Source of the DNA: Candidatus Omnitrophota bacterium
Lineage (GTDB): Bacteria; Omnitrophota; Gorgyraeia; Tantalellales; Tantalellaceae
Assembly (NCBI GenBank): GCA_015231405.1
Contig: JADGBR010000007.1
Coordinates: forward strand, 6,401 to 40,790
Direction: 5' to 3'
DNA length: 34,390 nt
Made by a program: the position numbers and the translations under genes
The notes under the pieces: generated by a model
Seen by the model: only the letters and a program-made list of their open reading frames with translations
Database searches by the model: none
Told to the model about the DNA's origin: nothing
Part shown: piece by piece, positions 3,301 through 18,198 of the stretch
How positions within the stretch are numbered: position 1 is the first letter of the stretch
Layout: the number at the start of each line of letters is the position of its first letter

Positions 3301-4509
3301 GACCTCAAGATCAAACAGGAAGTTTCGATCGGGCAGTACGATGAGATAGACCGGCTTAAAACCGAGCTGGCCGGCGTTTTATCCGAAAAAACTGCGCTGG
3401 AAAGCAGGGCCTACGAGGCTGACGTTCTCTGTGCGAAAGTATCCAGCCTTGAGGACGAGCTGGAAAGGAGAAGGGAAGAAGCCGAGCGGCTCAACCTTGA
3501 CATAAGCGGGCTCTCCGCCGAACTTTCCTCCATGGCCGCTCTTAAGGACTCCCTTCGCGCCGAGCGCGTTAAGGCCGAGGAATCAGACCGGAGGGCGGAC
3601 CGCCTTACGGAAGAGCTCTTGAGCAAGGAGAAGGAATCCGATATGCGCCAGACCCAGATCGCCTATCTGCACACCGAATTGGCGGCTATTTCGGAAAAGA
3701 ACGCGGCGGGCGCGAAAGAATCAGGCTTTTTGCGTGACAGGATAAAAAACCTCGAGTCCGAGCTGGTCATGAAGGGCGATGCCGACCGGGAAAGAGAGCG
3801 GGAGCGGGAAGAGATAAAGTCCGTTTACGATATCGAGATGAAAAAACTTTCACTTGAGGTGGAATCACTTTACGTCGAAAGGAAGAACGCCGAACAGCTT
3901 AAGAAAGAGATGGCCGAGATAAGATCGCAGCTTAACGACGTGAGGAACCGCCTACTGGAAAGGGACGAGGAGATACGTGGTAAACAGTTGGAGGTCCAGG
4001 TCCTGAATTCAGAGCTCTTGAGGGCCCAGGACGAGAAAAAGAAGATCGGGGACGCCGTCCGGGAGAAAGAGGAGCTTAAAACGAGGCTTGACGCCGTCAG
4101 GAGCGATATTTTCGCGAAAGATAAGGCGCTCGCGGAAAAACAGGCCGAGCTCGATTCCCTTAGGCTTGAGGCCGGTAAGCTTTCGGAGGATACTAAGAGG
4201 TACGATATCAACATGGACAAGGTCAAGGTCCTTGAGCTTTCGCTCGTCCAGATGGAACATTCCATCGAGGAGCAGCGGAGGATTTCCGGGAACATAAAGA
4301 GCCGACTTGAAAAAAGCCGTGAGAAAATAGCCGTCCTGAATAATAAGACCAGGGACAATATTGAGGCCATAGCCGAGTTCGCGGGGACCAGGGAATTCAT
4401 GGAGCTCAGGAGATCGGTTTACATCGACGAGCTGGTGAAAAGATATGAGCGTGAGATCAACGATCTGAGAACGCAGCTCTCATCCGTTAAAAGGACTTCG
4501 GTTGAATAG
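355..4509 (+). CDS. Giant membrane-anchored coiled-coil protein, 1384 residues
   Basis: Starts at an ATG 8 bases after AAGGAG. Residues 3-22 form one hydrophobic segment and almost everything after about residue 36 is Glu/Lys/Arg/Leu-rich heptad sequence with very little proline, i.e. one very long coiled coil. Lysines directly follow the hydrophobic segment (VDLKKLKQ) and none precede it, so the positive-inside rule favours a cytoplasmic coil tethered to the inner membrane; this is inference. Residues about 465-662 carry an internal repeat: a 21-residue unit (G-x-R/K-x-x-E-x-x-x-LRE-x-L...) alternating with a 24-residue unit, giving 45-residue repeats at 486-530, 552-596 and 597-641. SMC/myosin-like annotations would be composition artefacts, since no ATPase or head domain is present. 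A structural, scaffolding or polar-localisation role is plausible but unproven. It is followed 17 bases later by a membrane pseudo-kinase. Confidence 0.88.
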   Translation: MTFAIILSVVCFLWALFVTMKLTSASHSFIPTVDLKKLKQDREHSNTLLARRDQEVERLKSEIKMLKDDIYLQSLTSRKTVPGQKNEPEKDVKGAVLDEAEKNTRRLKEIASSLEARNEEVREKEKANAALAQKVEELSKTLSNVMAGKDITGTITHELNNLRDDLKNKDERIQALSGELAKAERVLSGGEGAQKEYADMARRFETVEKERDELDRILRSRNDELEDLSVKLSESAGAKVLSKQEMVELAASKSQAEKLLAELEEEKTRSREKDIEIDRLTEEASSRRAAEPEINRMKEEIARLTSQKEFPETSGSETGSMGARIDALEHELRSKKNENAALRRETEILKSEVSKGAAALEGKTRECAEALKKIESLEAEAGRGIGKAGKDRDEIIKLNEAIVKLTGEKAALEESSKERDLLREKGDLLERDIAEKEKDLEAKSREIEVLKIDKDEALREKDELGSRIVESDNLWERLRSSESELGARAAETESLRERLSAAEEALGIKGREIESLARFKLEAAKDKEELGARTWEVESLREMLRVSGEDLGTRAAELVSLREKLSAAEEALGAKSRELDVLSRSNAETVIEKEALGAKVSELENLRGELRAAENEIESKGREVEALLMSNAEAVREKDELGAKLAELEELKARLKAAETELRSKVEGFASMAEDADRMREKIDTIQNELWMKETESSFRLEEMDRLNREIANAEAEKEAYREKAEEESASRITETQRLKNELENALKEKEGYRERSETAGETIKRLEGIENEYRSKEEESVARLEEIGRLNSEISEALREKEDYRTKAEELEDVKAKLKEAENFLAGKDGEIAFALGEIDRLNLEIERERARIVSLEENSRREAETFSARVDAIGAELSSAKQGAAMDKSEIGRLKAELDDAIIAQKGFEAMELSVREDLGKRISSLESELEARSSEIERLNERAAGLDSTISALAAEKKELERKTRDIDSLVQRIGSMERDLKIKQEVSIGQYDEIDRLKTELAGVLSEKTALESRAYEADVLCAKVSSLEDELERRREEAERLNLDISGLSAELSSMAALKDSLRAERVKAEESDRRADRLTEELLSKEKESDMRQTQIAYLHTELAAISEKNAAGAKESGFLRDRIKNLESELVMKGDADREREREREEIKSVYDIEMKKLSLEVESLYVERKNAEQLKKEMAEIRSQLNDVRNRLLERDEEIRGKQLEVQVLNSELLRAQDEKKKIGDAVREKEELKTRLDAVRSDIFAKDKALAEKQAELDSLRLEAGKLSEDTKRYDINMDKVKVLELSLVQMEHSIEEQRRISGNIKSRLEKSREKIAVLNNKTRDNIEAIAEFAGTREFMELRRSVYIDELVKRYEREINDLRTQLSSVKRTSVE

Positions 4510-11203: not shown

Positions 11204-11220
11204 TGTGGGACGGCGTATTT

Positions 11221-11321
11221 CGTGTTACGTGTCACGTGTCACGTATTTGTAGGTTGAATTGGGAGAGGATAACATATTTAGAAACACAACCGCGTGACAC
11301 GTAACACGTGACACGTGACAC
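11221..11321. repeat. Inverted heptamer array B
   Basis: Left arm 11222-11242 reads GTGTTAC, GTGTCAC, GTGTCAC. The right arm (11294-11321) is the inverse complement of four such heptamers. 11221-11235 is perfectly complementary to 11294-11308 (15 bp), with a spacer of about 50 bases. The right arm ends 16 bases before the next start codon and just before its Shine-Dalgarno sequence. Confidence 0.9.
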
Positions 11322-12830: not shown

Positions 12831-13802
12831 ATGAAAAAAAGGAAATATATAATCGGCGTCGACGTCGGCGGAACGAAGACAGCTTCAGGTGTGATCACCG
12901 GTAACGGCCACCTCGTCGGGAAGATCGTGCTCCCCACATGCGCTCGCCGCGGACGGGATGTCTCCGTCAAACAGGTGCTTTCTTCGGTCAGCGCCGTCCT
13001 GGAGAGAACCGGGATCGGAAAAAAAGATCTTAAGGGGATAGGCGTCTGCGCTCCCGGGCCGCTCGATCCGAAAAGGGGGATAGTGCATAACCCGCCGAAC
13101 CTGCCGGGATGGGACAATGTTCCTCTTCCCGCGATAATCGAGAAAAAATTTGGGGTGAGGACGGAGCTTGAGAACGACGCGAACGCCGCCGGTATGGCCG
13201 AGATGATATGGGGCGCCGCCCGCGGATACAAGAATGTTTTTTACGTCACGGTCAGCACCGGCATAGGTACCGGCATCATCATCGGCGGCAGGATATATCA
13301 CGGCAAGAACGGCATGGCGGGTGAAGGCGGCCATTGCACAATTAACTACGACGATACCGGAGGCCCTTGCGGGTGCGGCAATATCGGTTGCGTGGAGAGC
13401 ATGGCGTCGGGCCCGGCGACTTCCAGGCGCCTCATTAAAAAGATGAAGAAATCGGGGGGTAAAAAGTCTATTCTGTACAGGTTGTCCGGGGGGGATTTAG
13501 GCGCGATCACCATGAGGACTATAGCCGATGCTGCCCGGCAGAAAGATAAGCTGGCGATGGATACGATAAAGGAACAGGGTCGGATCCTTGGGATATGGCT
13601 CGGCGGCATGATAAACGTCCTTGACCCCGGCATTATCGTCATAGGAGGCGGAGTTTCGTCCATCGGTAAACTTATTTTCGACGAGATACGTAAGACCGCC
13701 TATAAGTCGACCGTCAATGTTTTCGCCGCCAAAACCCCGATCGTTCCGGCTAAGCTGAAAAGTGACGTAGGTATTTATGGCGCTGCATCGATCGTTATGT
13801 GA
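12831..13802 (+). CDS. ROK-family sugar kinase, probable glucokinase
   Basis: 323 residues from ATG 12831, preceded by GAGGGGAAGAG; upstream in-frame codons overlap the previous gene and are less likely. The phosphate-binding motif DVGGTKT is at 11-17, the catalytic Asp116 lies in ENDANAAG, and the ROK signature at about 143-167 (STGIGTG...GEGGH) is present. A complete structural zinc site has His168 and Cys180/Cys182/Cys187 (CGCGNIGC). The E-N-D and HC-CGCG-GC-E pattern is that of bacterial ROK glucokinases, which make glucose-6-phosphate from glucose and ATP in the cytoplasm. Related members act on N-acetylglucosamine or N-acetylmannosamine, and substrate cannot be fixed from sequence alone. 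It ends next to heptamer array C. Confidence 0.92.
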   Translation: MKKRKYIIGVDVGGTKTASGVITGNGHLVGKIVLPTCARRGRDVSVKQVLSSVSAVLERTGIGKKDLKGIGVCAPGPLDPKRGIVHNPPNLPGWDNVPLPAIIEKKFGVRTELENDANAAGMAEMIWGAARGYKNVFYVTVSTGIGTGIIIGGRIYHGKNGMAGEGGHCTINYDDTGGPCGCGNIGCVESMASGPATSRRLIKKMKKSGGKKSILYRLSGGDLGAITMRTIADAARQKDKLAMDTIKEQGRILGIWLGGMINVLDPGIIVIGGGVSSIGKLIFDEIRKTAYKSTVNVFAAKTPIVPAKLKSDVGIYGAASIVM

Positions 13803-13803
13803 A

Positions 13804-13838
13804 GGTCCATGGTCTATGGTCCATAGTCCATGGTCTGA
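13804..13838. repeat. Heptamer array C (compact palindrome)
   Basis: Five in-phase heptamers: GGTCCAT, GGTCTAT, GGTCCAT, AGTCCAT, GGTCTGA. Because the word is partly self-complementary, the array forms its own hairpin: 13807-13819 pairs with 13821-13833 with 12 of 13 matches. It begins two bases after the ROK stop codon and contains the likely start codon (13816) of the next gene. Confidence 0.85.
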
Positions 13839-14757: not shown

Positions 14758-15585
14758 ATGAAGACCAATAAAACTTTCGTTATCATCCTACTCATGGCGA
14801 CGATGCTACTCGTGCATCGTCCCGCTTTCGCGAGAGATAACTCACCGGACCCGTTCACGACGAGCGAAAATAAAAAGGCTTTCGCCAGGGAAATATCCTT
14901 GATGATAGGGAAAGCCTGGAAAGAGTGGCAGGACAAAGTAGAGATAAACGACGTAGCTGTCGACGGTTCGGGGGGAGTCATTTTTACGGGAGCCATACAT
15001 GAACCGTCCCTGACCAAAAGGGCCATCATGAAGGATTTTGTCCGCGGCGAGAAGTCGAGAGCTTACGCGAAATGTGTTGTCATAATCTCCGAGGCCCTTG
15101 AAGATGGCATGAGAAAGTGGCAGTGGGGTTATTCGAACGGGAAGATAATATTCCCCCAGGGATCGTCGTGCCTGTATACGTTGACGCCATGCCGGAACAT
15201 GCCGCTAGGGGTCAGCAGAGGAAAGTCTTCCGGAAGAGGATCAATGGAGAGCGGGGAATTGTATGATCTCATGTATTACCGGGCCCCGTCCTTAAAAGGT
15301 AACTATCTAAAGATATTTAAAGCCGCTTCGGTCGCGATAGCGGAGTGTTTTACCAAATGGGAAGAAGAATGCGTGATATCCGGTATTACCGCTAAAGGCG
15401 GAGTAGCGCCTTCTCCGTCGCCGCTCGGTCAGGGCCCGGGGCCGGTCAGGGGAGCGACGGGTAACGGCGGCAGGCTCACCGGGGCATATTTCGACGGGGA
15501 GCTGATGTACGTCCGCATGTGCCGGATCCTGGATGAGTTGGAGGGAATAGAAAAGGGTCAAGGGTCAGGGGGGCAAGGGTCATGA
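14758..15585 (+). CDS. Exported protein with three internal repeats, function unknown
   Basis: 275 residues from ATG 14758, preceded by GGTGA. There is a clear Sec signal peptide (residues 1-26, cleavage near AFA-RD), so it is periplasmic or outer-surface. Three related segments can be seen, each with an aromatic K-x-W helix followed by a glycine-rich strand: about 47-80 (KAWKEWQDKVEIND), 108-142 (MRKWQWGYSNGKI) and 188-250 (FTKWEEECVISGI). The third is split by a Pro/Gly-rich insert (about 217-233) encoded by a partly palindromic 46-bp segment at 15415-15460 (CCGTCGC...GCGACGG). The last ten residues (KGQGSGGQGS) are encoded by heptamer array E. No family is recognised. The repeat-derived insert and tail suggest the gene tolerates, or has recently taken up, repeat DNA. 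Confidence 0.75.
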   Translation: MKTNKTFVIILLMATMLLVHRPAFARDNSPDPFTTSENKKAFAREISLMIGKAWKEWQDKVEINDVAVDGSGGVIFTGAIHEPSLTKRAIMKDFVRGEKSRAYAKCVVIISEALEDGMRKWQWGYSNGKIIFPQGSSCLYTLTPCRNMPLGVSRGKSSGRGSMESGELYDLMYYRAPSLKGNYLKIFKAASVAIAECFTKWEEECVISGITAKGGVAPSPSPLGQGPGPVRGATGNGGRLTGAYFDGELMYVRMCRILDELEGIEKGQGSGGQGS

Positions 15586-15705
15586 AAAGGGGTAGTGGTT
15601 GGATGGTCGACGAACAACCAAATACAATTCAGATCGCGATATGATCCAGGAAAGCTCTTTTCCCTTTTCCCTGACCCTAAACCCTTGACCCTTGCCCCTT
15701 TTTAT
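15552..15705. repeat. Inverted heptamer array E
   Basis: The left arm from 15553 reads AAGGGTC, AAGGGTC, then degenerate units. The right arm, about 15658-15705, is its inverse (ACCCTTGACCCTTGCCCC...). 15570-15582 is perfectly complementary to 15686-15698 (13 bp), with about 100 bases between. The left arm lies inside the preceding coding sequence and supplies its C-terminus; the right arm ends 15 bases before the dnaX -35 element. Confidence 0.85.
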
Positions 15706-15755: not shown

Positions 15756-17471
15756 ATGTACCAGGTATTAGCCCAGAAATACCGGCCCAGGGGATTTGAC
15801 GATGTCCTCGGGCAGGAAGCGGCCGTAAGGACCCTTAAGAACGCCGTTAGTTCCGGCAGGATCGCTAACGCCTATATGTTCTCAGGTCCGAGAGGCGTGG
15901 GTAAAACGTCGCTCGCGCGTCTTCTCGCCAAGATAATAAATTGCGATAAACCGTCCGCGGGAGGTCCCTGCAACAAGTGTCCCCGCTGCGAAGAGATAAC
16001 GAAAGGGAGCAGCATGGATGTGCTGGAGATAGACGGAGCTTCCAATAGGGGCATCGACGAGATCCGGACGCTCCGGGAAAGCGTCAGGTTCCTGCCTTCT
16101 ACCGGGAAATATAAGGTTTATGTCATAGACGAGGTGCATATGCTCACCTCGGAAGCTTTCAACGCGCTTTTAAAGACACTGGAAGAACCTCCCGAACATG
16201 TGAAATTCATTTTCGCCACCACCGAAGCCCATAAGGTGCTTCCGACAATAATGTCGCGCTGCCAGAAGTTCGATTTCAAACGTATACCCCCGAAACTGAT
16301 ATATGAGCAAGTGAAGGATATAGCCAGGAAAGAGAAAATTGAGATCGACGAGAAGGCGATGCTTCTCATAGCGCGCGCGGCGGACGGTAGTCTCCGGGAC
16401 GCGCTCGTCATACTCGACCAGATGGTCTCTTTCACCGCGGGGAAAGTGACCGCTAAAGAGGTGCTCGACCTTCTGGGTATGGTTGGGGGTGAGATAATAT
16501 CCGATCTTTCGGACGCGGTCATACTAAAGGCACCTGAAAAAGTGGCGCGGATACTGGACGACCTTATAAATAACGGGAAGGACCCGGTTTTCATATTGAA
16601 TAATCTCATGTCTCATTTTAGGGATATACTGATCTTGAAGAGCGCCGGGTCTCCGACGACGGATATGGTCTTCCATGACGATGAGCTCGCGGTCCTAGAG
16701 AACCAGGCCGAGAAGATGTCGATTGAAGAGGTCCTGTACATATTACAGAACCTGGCCCATTGCGGTACGCTAATGAAAGGGACAATGTACACTCGCGTTC
16801 CGCTTGAGATATCGCTTATTAAATTGACGAAAAGGGACAGTATCCTTTCGATCGGGGAAGTGCTCGAGCGGCTTGAAAAACTCGAGTCGGGAGAGAACCC
16901 CCTGGGCAGTATCCAGCGGCCGGCTATCCCCTCGGGGAGTAACCAGAAACCAGTAACCAGTGACCAGAGGCCGGTGGGGAGTGACCAGAAACCAGCGGCC
17001 CCTTCAGGGAGTAACCAGAAACCGGTAACCAGTAACCAGAATATGGCGGGGGATGACGAGGAACTTCCGGCCGATGAGCTCGAGTTGACCGGTGAGCCTG
17101 GGACACACTGGGATATGCTGCTGAAATATCTCAAGAACAAGAAGTTCTCCGTGTATACCTTCATCAAACAGGCAAAGCCGATAGATCTTTCGGAGAAAAA
17201 AGCTGTGATCGCTTTTGATAAGGACCACGCGTTCAATAAAGAAATGCTGGAAACACCGGATAATCTCGATCTGATAAAAGAATCCCTTGAGTCGGTGTTC
17301 GGGGCCAGGCCGGCCTTGGAGATAAGGGTGCTCGACCGGATGTCCCAGCAAATAGACGGGCACGGGCTTCTCAAAAAAAAGCAGGAAGAGATACGTAAAA
17401 CATCCAATCCCGCTATCGAGGCGGCATTGGATGTGTTCGGAGGGAAGATCGTCAGGGACCATATCGACTGA
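15756..17471 (+). CDS. dnaX: DNA polymerase III subunit gamma/tau
   Basis: 571 residues. The clamp-loader ATPase of the replisome: it loads the beta clamp and tethers polymerase cores. The N-terminus YQVLAQKYRPRGFDDVLGQ is diagnostic. Walker A GPRGVGKT is at 44-51, the zinc-finger cysteines are 63, 72, 75 and 78, Walker B VIDE at 123-126 and the SRC sensor at 167-169. The AAA+ and lid domains run to about 365. Residues about 385-430 are a low-complexity linker, SNQKPVT/SDQRPVG/SDQKPAA repeats, encoded by heptamer array F. It is followed by a C-terminal domain of about 135 residues of tau-like or shortened type. The start at ATG 15756 matches the family start. recR follows, but the ybaB gene that often sits between the two is absent. 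Confidence 0.97.
   Translation: MYQVLAQKYRPRGFDDVLGQEAAVRTLKNAVSSGRIANAYMFSGPRGVGKTSLARLLAKIINCDKPSAGGPCNKCPRCEEITKGSSMDVLEIDGASNRGIDEIRTLRESVRFLPSTGKYKVYVIDEVHMLTSEAFNALLKTLEEPPEHVKFIFATTEAHKVLPTIMSRCQKFDFKRIPPKLIYEQVKDIARKEKIEIDEKAMLLIARAADGSLRDALVILDQMVSFTAGKVTAKEVLDLLGMVGGEIISDLSDAVILKAPEKVARILDDLINNGKDPVFILNNLMSHFRDILILKSAGSPTTDMVFHDDELAVLENQAEKMSIEEVLYILQNLAHCGTLMKGTMYTRVPLEISLIKLTKRDSILSIGEVLERLEKLESGENPLGSIQRPAIPSGSNQKPVTSDQRPVGSDQKPAAPSGSNQKPVTSNQNMAGDDEELPADELELTGEPGTHWDMLLKYLKNKKFSVYTFIKQAKPIDLSEKKAVIAFDKDHAFNKEMLETPDNLDLIKESLESVFGARPALEIRVLDRMSQQIDGHGLLKKKQEEIRKTSNPAIEAALDVFGGKIVRDHID
16939..17038. repeat. Heptamer array F inside dnaX
   Basis: In-phase heptamers GTAACCA, GAAACCA, GTAACCA, GTGACCA, GAGGCCG, GTGGGGA, GTGACCA, GAAACCA (16939-16994), then a 16-base interruption, then GTAACCA, GAAACCG, GTAACCA, GTAACCA (17011-17038). 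Three heptamers equal seven codons, so the reading frame stays open and encodes a 7-residue repeat (SNQKPVT) at residues 395-428. All copies are direct; no inverted arm is seen. A preceding CCCCTCGGGGAGT / CCCCTTCAGGGAGT pair shows the unit was duplicated. Confidence 0.9.
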
Positions 17472-17499: not shown

Positions 17500-17583
17500 G
17501 TGAGACGTAGGATGTAGGACGTGGGACGTAAAGCAACGGCTACTTGCAGTCAACGTCCTACGTCCCACATCCCACGTCCTACG
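17500..17583. repeat. Inverted heptamer array G
   Basis: Left arm 17500-17530: GTGAGAC, GTAGGAT, GTAGGAC, GTGGGAC, GTA. The right arm 17553-17583 is the inverse of GTAGGAC, GTGGGAT, GTGGGAC, GTAGGAC. 17514-17526 pairs perfectly with 17570-17582 (13 bp). The right arm stops 12 bases before the recR start, directly beside its ribosome binding site. Confidence 0.9.
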
Positions 17584-17595
17584 GAACAGGATAAT

Positions 17596-18198
17596 ATGCA
17601 TAAAGCGTTTCCCGATTCTATAAATAGGCTCATCAAAGAGCTGTCCGCCATGCCGGGCATAGGTCCCAGATCCGCGGAACGCATAACTTTCCATATATTG
17701 CAATCTCCCCGGGAAAATATCATCGATCTCCTTAATTCGATCAAGGAAGTTAAGACCAGCGTCAGGTTCTGCGGAGTTTGCTCGAACTTGAGCGACGGCG
17801 GGACCTGCGGTATATGTTCCGATCCGGCGAGGGACAGGACAAGGATATGCGTGGTCGAAGGTCCGGGGGGTATAACGGCCATGGAGAGGAGCGGTGCTTA
17901 TCGGGGATTGTACCATGTTCTCTTGGGCGCTCTCTCCCCCATCGACGGAGTTGGTCCCGATGAGCTCCGGATAGGCGGCCTTCTAAAAAGGCTGAGCGGG
18001 GAAGGGGTGGCGGAGATTATCCTCGCTACCGATTTCACGACCGGCGGAGAGACCACGGCGATGTATCTCAAGAGGGCGCTGGAACCGTTCAATGTGACCG
18101 TGACCAGGCTATCCAGGGGCGTGCCGGTAGGGGGAAGTCTCGAATACGTTGATATCGCCACCCTTCAGCGGGCGTTCGAGGATCGTCGGAAGGCGTGA
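17596..18198 (+). CDS. recR: Recombination mediator protein RecR
   Basis: 200 residues, the normal RecR length, from ATG 17596 (preceded by ACAGGA); an in-frame GTG at 17521 lies in the repeat arm and is rejected. The helix-hairpin-helix PGIGPRSAER is at 20-29, the zinc cysteines are 59, 62, 71 and 74 (CGVC...CGIC), and the Toprim domain starts with ICVVEGP at 84-90. The C-terminal SRGVPVGGSLEYVD motif is typical. With RecF/RecO it loads RecA at gaps and double-strand breaks in the cytoplasm. dnaX-recR linkage is widespread in bacteria. Because array G lies in the gap, expression could come from dnaX transcripts passing through the hairpin. Confidence 0.97.
   Translation: MHKAFPDSINRLIKELSAMPGIGPRSAERITFHILQSPRENIIDLLNSIKEVKTSVRFCGVCSNLSDGGTCGICSDPARDRTRICVVEGPGGITAMERSGAYRGLYHVLLGALSPIDGVGPDELRIGGLLKRLSGEGVAEIILATDFTTGGETTAMYLKRALEPFNVTVTRLSRGVPVGGSLEYVDIATLQRAFEDRRKA

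Follow-up and report, generated by a model that had tools for sequence, protein, structure and literature searches.

dnaX encodes the gamma/tau subunit of DNA polymerase III, and in a Candidatus Omnitrophota bacterium its reading frame contains a run of seven-base repeats whose word carries a stop codon. This raises the question of how such an array came to lie within an essential replication gene and how translation passes through it. The analysis covered the window, meaning the whole stretch of 34,390 nucleotides, together with samples of the same genome and of its relatives.

The dnaX gene and its linker

The gene and the region between its domains are placed as follows.

15756-17471, + strand: dnaX, DNA polymerase III subunit gamma/tau, 571 amino acids (NCBIfam, Pfam domains, identity to relatives)
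16893-17096, + strand: interdomain linker, residues 380-447, predicted to be disordered (AlphaFold2 pLDDT <50; unalignable among relatives)

The dnaX product reaches 519 bits with NCBIfam PRK05563, above the cut-off of 400, and 446 bits with TIGR02397. DnaX proteins of the same family are 47-58% identical to it. Pfam analysis showed that one ORF holds all expected domains: the AAA+ region, domain III, and the C-terminal domain of tau. Residue 372 is the last of domain III, and the DnaX_C match begins at 450, which agrees with the preliminary description, where the array was placed between the ATPase and C-terminal domains. The low pLDDT of residues 380-447 supports disorder of the linker but is short of proof, because the overall confidence of the model is modest (mean pLDDT 68.6, 15 sequences). 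Inspection of the linker sequence showed no long homopolymer run, a point that bears on gamma synthesis by programmed frameshifting. A run of A8 followed by G at 17373-17380, near the 3' end of dnaX and distant from the domain III boundary, may be a slippage site.

Structure of the dnaX array

The array consists of two blocks of heptamers enclosed in a longer duplication.

16928-17072, + strand: 72-bp (24-codon) in-frame tandem duplication enclosing both blocks (TRF period 72, 2.0 copies, 78% matches)
16938-17000, + strand: heptamer block 1, nine units (AGTAACC, AGAAACC, AGTAACC, AGTGACC, AGAGGCC, GGTGGGG, AGTGACC, AGAAACC, AGCGGCC)
17001-17009, + strand: 9-base spacer CCTTCAGGG (codons P S G) separating the blocks; it matches CCCTCGGGG at 16929-16937
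17010-17044, + strand: heptamer block 2 (AGTAACC, AGAAACC, GGTAACC, AGTAACC, AGAATAT)

The array starts at 16938, which is codon 395, and ends at 17039-17044. The earlier position was thus right for the linker and one base off at the start (16939). About twelve GTAACCA-type heptamers had been counted before. Compared with AGTAACC, ten units agree in 6-7 of 7 bases and a further two in 4 of 7, with the units of block 2 counted in a new register after the spacer. Translation confirmed the open frame and the SNQKPVT-like repeat from residue 395; the encoded residues are SNQKPVT-SDQRPVG-SDQKPAA-PSG-SNQKPVT-SNQNMAG. The internal duplication, previously suspected from a CCCCTCGGGG / CCCCTTCAGGG pair, was recovered as the 72-bp repeat.

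Successive heptamers match at lag 7 in 38 of 56 and 20 of 28 positions, and the lag-7 scores in dnaX are 15.5 and 13.0. At lag 21, 28 of 42 positions match, and at lag 72, 56 of 72. The present array fits in-frame steps of 21 and 72 bp equally well as steps of a single heptamer. In the two 72-bp copies, the first 11 codons specify identical residues (PSGSNQKPVTS) despite three synonymous differences. This fits the in-frame growth proposed below, and it would also be expected if the linker residues had a specific function, such as partner binding, and the heptamer pattern were a by-product of protein-level repeats. However, the two copies diverge in protein sequence over their second halves, and the sequence is absent from every relative compared, so that a specific function of this kind is very improbable.

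The RNA fold of the array region is no better than that of shuffled sequences (z = +1.2), which rules out a role of the array as a terminator or hairpin. The array also lacks an inverted partner, unlike most arrays of the genome sample described below, and so copies the usual intergenic element only in part.

Heptamer arrays across the genome

Arrays were surveyed in 714 kb of the 3.66-Mb genome with a simple gene caller, excluding runs of N and using other lags as a control. The genomes of the other family members searched measure 1.1-3.1 Mb. The sample contained 55 arrays at lag 7, whereas no lag outside the multiples of 7 gave more than 9 in total, and most of these were coding repeats whose period is a multiple of three. 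An excess was also found at lags 14 and 21. While 91% of the sample is coding, 33 of the 55 arrays are intergenic, 13 overlap a gene edge, and only 9 fall within called genes. Periods outside the multiples of 7 yielded no more than 2 intergenic arrays each. Among gaps of at least 80 bp, 35 of 172 contain a heptamer array. The dnaX repeat thus belongs with head-to-tail 7-bp units that exceed chance and are dispersed through the genome, mainly between genes. No report of heptamer repeats in Omnitrophota was found in a literature search.

Among the nine in-gene arrays, four segments are truly internal, and these belong to three genes. The others lie in the first or last tenth of the ORF, often because a start codon was called inside or before an upstream array, as in recR. 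Besides dnaX, one internal array lies ahead of a response-regulator receiver domain in a protein of 2625 residues, and another comes after a WD40 repeat in a protein of 6163 residues. All three genes carry their internal arrays outside recognised domains, in what look like linkers. Together with the strong depletion in genes, this supports the earlier proposal that selection confines the arrays to flexible linkers. Beside the array of the receiver-domain protein (L035:3460-3490), the linker sequence RLRQGFGGQA may resemble the peptide of a repeat dispersed in environmental genomes.

An inverted partner within 150 bases accompanies 30 of the 55 arrays and 15 of 133 array-free intergenic controls. 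In an exact search, AGTAACC occurs in tandem at five other loci of the genome, four of which are inverted pairs made of an array, a spacer, and a reverse-complement array; relaxed units add further loci. Several AGTAACC loci begin where the upstream gene ends, at its stop codon or close to it. RNA folds of six intergenic inverted pairs, with words of all kinds, gave z values from -3.7 to -7.0. Two such pairs flank dnaX.

15553-15702, no strand assigned: intergenic inverted pair of heptamer arrays upstream of dnaX, AAGGGTC / TTGACCC, a different word (RNA fold z = -5.2)
17504-17583, no strand assigned: inverted pair of heptamer arrays between dnaX and recR, GACGTAG / ACGTCCT (RNA fold z = -7.0)

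The intergenic arrays (11214-11321, 15553-15700, 17504-17583, and many loci elsewhere in the genome) are mostly inverted pairs, forming long hairpins between co-directional genes, and often begin about 20 bases or less from the upstream stop codon. At 17521-17598, the recR ORF as listed starts within a heptamer array, and its true start is probably the ATG at 17598. At 13777-13835, a GGTCCAT array encodes the N-terminus of a glycosyltransferase-like ORF.

The survey bears on whether the linker holds an ordinary coding tandem repeat that grew by in-frame self-duplications of 21 and 72 bp, with the heptamer sub-period and the intergenic match being coincidental. The matches at lags 21 and 72 are in line with this, and in-frame periods of 18, 21, and 30 are common in the genes of this genome. 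In contrast, the match of successive heptamers at lag 7 is not accounted for, the word and its variant units are the same as in the intergenic arrays, and scores within genes are almost absent at lags divisible by neither 3 nor 7. A purely coding origin is therefore considered unlikely.

Reading frame and stop codons

The AGTAACC word carries TAA, and its variant AGTGACC gives TGA. Because 7 is coprime with 3, a perfect array of at least three heptamers reads all seven triplets in any frame, and a pure sense AGTAACC array would stop translation in every frame. MacGregor made this point for the TAACTGA repeat (PMC4679880). The units in the stop-giving phase of dnaX are AGAAACC, AGAGGCC, AGAAACC, AGAAACC, and AGAATAT, all with AGA- in place of AGT-. 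The earlier statement that three heptamers make seven codons is right as arithmetic and incomplete as an explanation, since a word with TAA or TGA presents its stop in every frame, and in dnaX only the AGA- form of each third unit keeps the frame open.

AGA- units occupy 5 of 5 stop-giving phases and 0 of 9 other phases (Fisher p 0.0005, for units that are non-independent owing to the 72-bp duplication). By shuffling, the avoidance of stops has a p of 0.009 for all 14 units and 0.12 for the first block alone. With units tied together by the duplication, stop avoidance was not counted as separate proof of selection. When nine units are drawn at the frequencies found in intergenic arrays, about 17% of the resulting arrays are open by luck. 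The variants AGAAACC and AGTGACC are also present in intergenic arrays of the genome, and hence an open array in dnaX needs no private or special mutation. The phase pattern of AGA- units is what an open frame requires, and it is a record of a filter rather than evidence of adaptive change.

Simulated changes of one or two units truncated DnaX at residues 397-448 in 36 of 36 cases, mostly at stops from the array itself just past domain III, and changes of three units all left DnaX whole. Such truncation could form a contingency switch, in which slippage by one heptamer would reversibly give a gamma-only DnaX through the stops of the repeat and regulate tau and gamma at the DNA level in part of the population. 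Bacteria do make gamma in several unrelated ways, including ribosomal frameshifting, transcriptional slippage, and proteolysis (PMC5009743). However, the array is degenerate and interrupted, which should reduce slippage, relatives have no array, and loss of tau at the DNA level is expected to be harmful. A switch at this locus is accordingly held to be highly unlikely.

Short tandem repeats can be misassembled, and an assembly artefact might be suspected in a metagenome-type genome. The array, however, is about 100 bp long, degenerate, and in frame, it lies 23 kb from the edge of a contig of 109 kb, and an artefact would hardly keep the frame open; the chance of this is negligible.

dnaX genes of relatives and other phyla

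In 14 dnaX genes of the same family and ten of the same class, a set with no member of the same genus, the linker is unalignable and carries no such array. The comparison with relatives proposed earlier thus gave a partial answer: the array is absent from 14 of 14 same-family genes, and in a set of this range no empty site is seen. Invasion of the array as a unit is therefore not demonstrated. Conservation of the linker at the protein level, which would speak against the earlier reading, was not found between relatives. Linkers of the family span 44-96 residues between the same anchors. The linker of the window's DnaX, at 89 residues, falls within this range, and therefore a gain in length, as the preliminary description had it for the 7-residue repeat, is not borne out.

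Heptamer arrays are patchy among relatives. They are frequent in the sampled parts of three genomes (G002, G010, and G031) and were not seen in 100 kb of G011 or in 80 kb of G008. G010 also has two dnaX-like genes (contigs C5 and C23), with 52% and 51% identity to that of the window, which points to either a genuine duplication or a mixed bin.

A set of 104 dnaX genes from many phyla, starting at the ATPase, gives four scores at lag 7, of which two fall in the window's dnaX; other lags, divisible by neither 3 nor 7, score 0-1 times. One other linker array was found, in frame at 3614-3643 of an unrelated Kiritimatiellae genome from goat rumen (L089), with a different heptamer, CAGATTT/CAAATCT. 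The match in L076 was judged to be chance, as it lies in the conserved GG-RDAL motif outside the linker. Arrays at the 5' ends of four dnaX ORFs (L075, L101, L145, and L025) were judged to be upstream arrays read into N-terminal extensions. In a phylum-wide search with the encoded peptide, the other matches were mostly arrays in short frames with stops, and G099 gave one open-frame match.

Origin and meaning of the dnaX array

Taken together, the array in dnaX is probably a known kind of heptanucleotide repeat (SSR/STRR) that lodged in a tolerant linker, then expanded there in frame, and probably serves as a neutral spacer. It would represent, within a coding region, the heptanucleotide tandem repeats that abound in the intergenic spaces of this genome. 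A short AGTAACC/AGAAACC stretch may have arisen in, or been copied into, the weakly constrained linker and survived because the reading frame was kept. Replication slippage or unequal recombination would then have enlarged it in frame, in steps of 21 bp and by a single duplication of 72 bp. Polymerase slippage has been proposed for the origin of heptamer arrays (PMC4679880). Purifying selection would act as a filter that removes length changes other than multiples of three units, in-frame TAA or TGA units, and arrays inside folded domains, while the encoded residues would serve only as a flexible spacer. The order of these events, the slippage mechanism, and the neutrality of the array are what we infer from its structure and distribution.

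The dnaX array offers a clean example of how a non-coding tandem repeat can be tolerated as, and turn into, protein. One word appears in two settings, as hairpin-forming inverted pairs between genes and as a disordered linker inside an essential gene, and the reading frame is visible as a filter on the units permitted in each phase. The array is also a natural test of the tolerance of the DnaX linker, and it is a record of heptamer arrays in a bacterial lineage about which little is known. Repeats of this kind are familiar, and the main lesson of the case is how non-coding DNA can be tolerated as protein.

Comparison with known repeats

Direct repeats of the TAACTGA heptamer occur in Beggiatoaceae, some Cyanobacteria, and Bacteroidetes (MacGregor 2015, PMC4679880). 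The stop codon of this word keeps its forward strand out of coding DNA; a small number of arrays is found within ORFs, for the most part outside regions with assigned function. The arrays of the present genome resemble them as seven-base tandem arrays that are mostly intergenic, have a stop codon in the word, and are few in ORFs. In contrast to that one fixed heptamer, words here vary by locus, the dnaX unit being AGTAACC (rotation GTAACCA) with variants. Forward TAACTGA arrays are found only at ORF ends and ORF-internal ones lie in the stop-free reverse orientation (PMC4679880), whereas the dnaX array lies in the stop-bearing orientation and is opened by substituted units.

The STRR or heptanucleotide repeats of cyanobacteria are likewise degenerate 7-bp repeats, often paired in hairpins, that lie between genes and inside RNA genes. 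They form P6b hairpins of the Nostoc tRNA-Leu intron and hairpins near hydrogenase genes (PMC3488679, PMC2670836), and a case in RNase P RNA is reported (Vioque 1997). The intragenic cases cited are RNA genes, whereas the dnaX array is protein-coding and has no hairpin. The GGGNATC heptameric repeats of Xanthomonas and Nostoc (Rehm et al. 2015, PMC4692102) are also genome-wide arrays depleted in coding DNA; their words are G-rich and quadruplex-capable, whereas AGTAACC has no G-tracts.

Rickettsia palindromic elements lie in frame in protein genes, including that of DNA polymerase III alpha, without destroying the genes (PMC3767692, PMC10969869), and are similar to the dnaX array as repeated DNA in frame within protein genes. 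These elements are palindromic, measure 100-150 bp, and occupy the same or a nearby site in related species, whereas the dnaX array is made of tandem heptamers, found in one genome and absent from its relatives.
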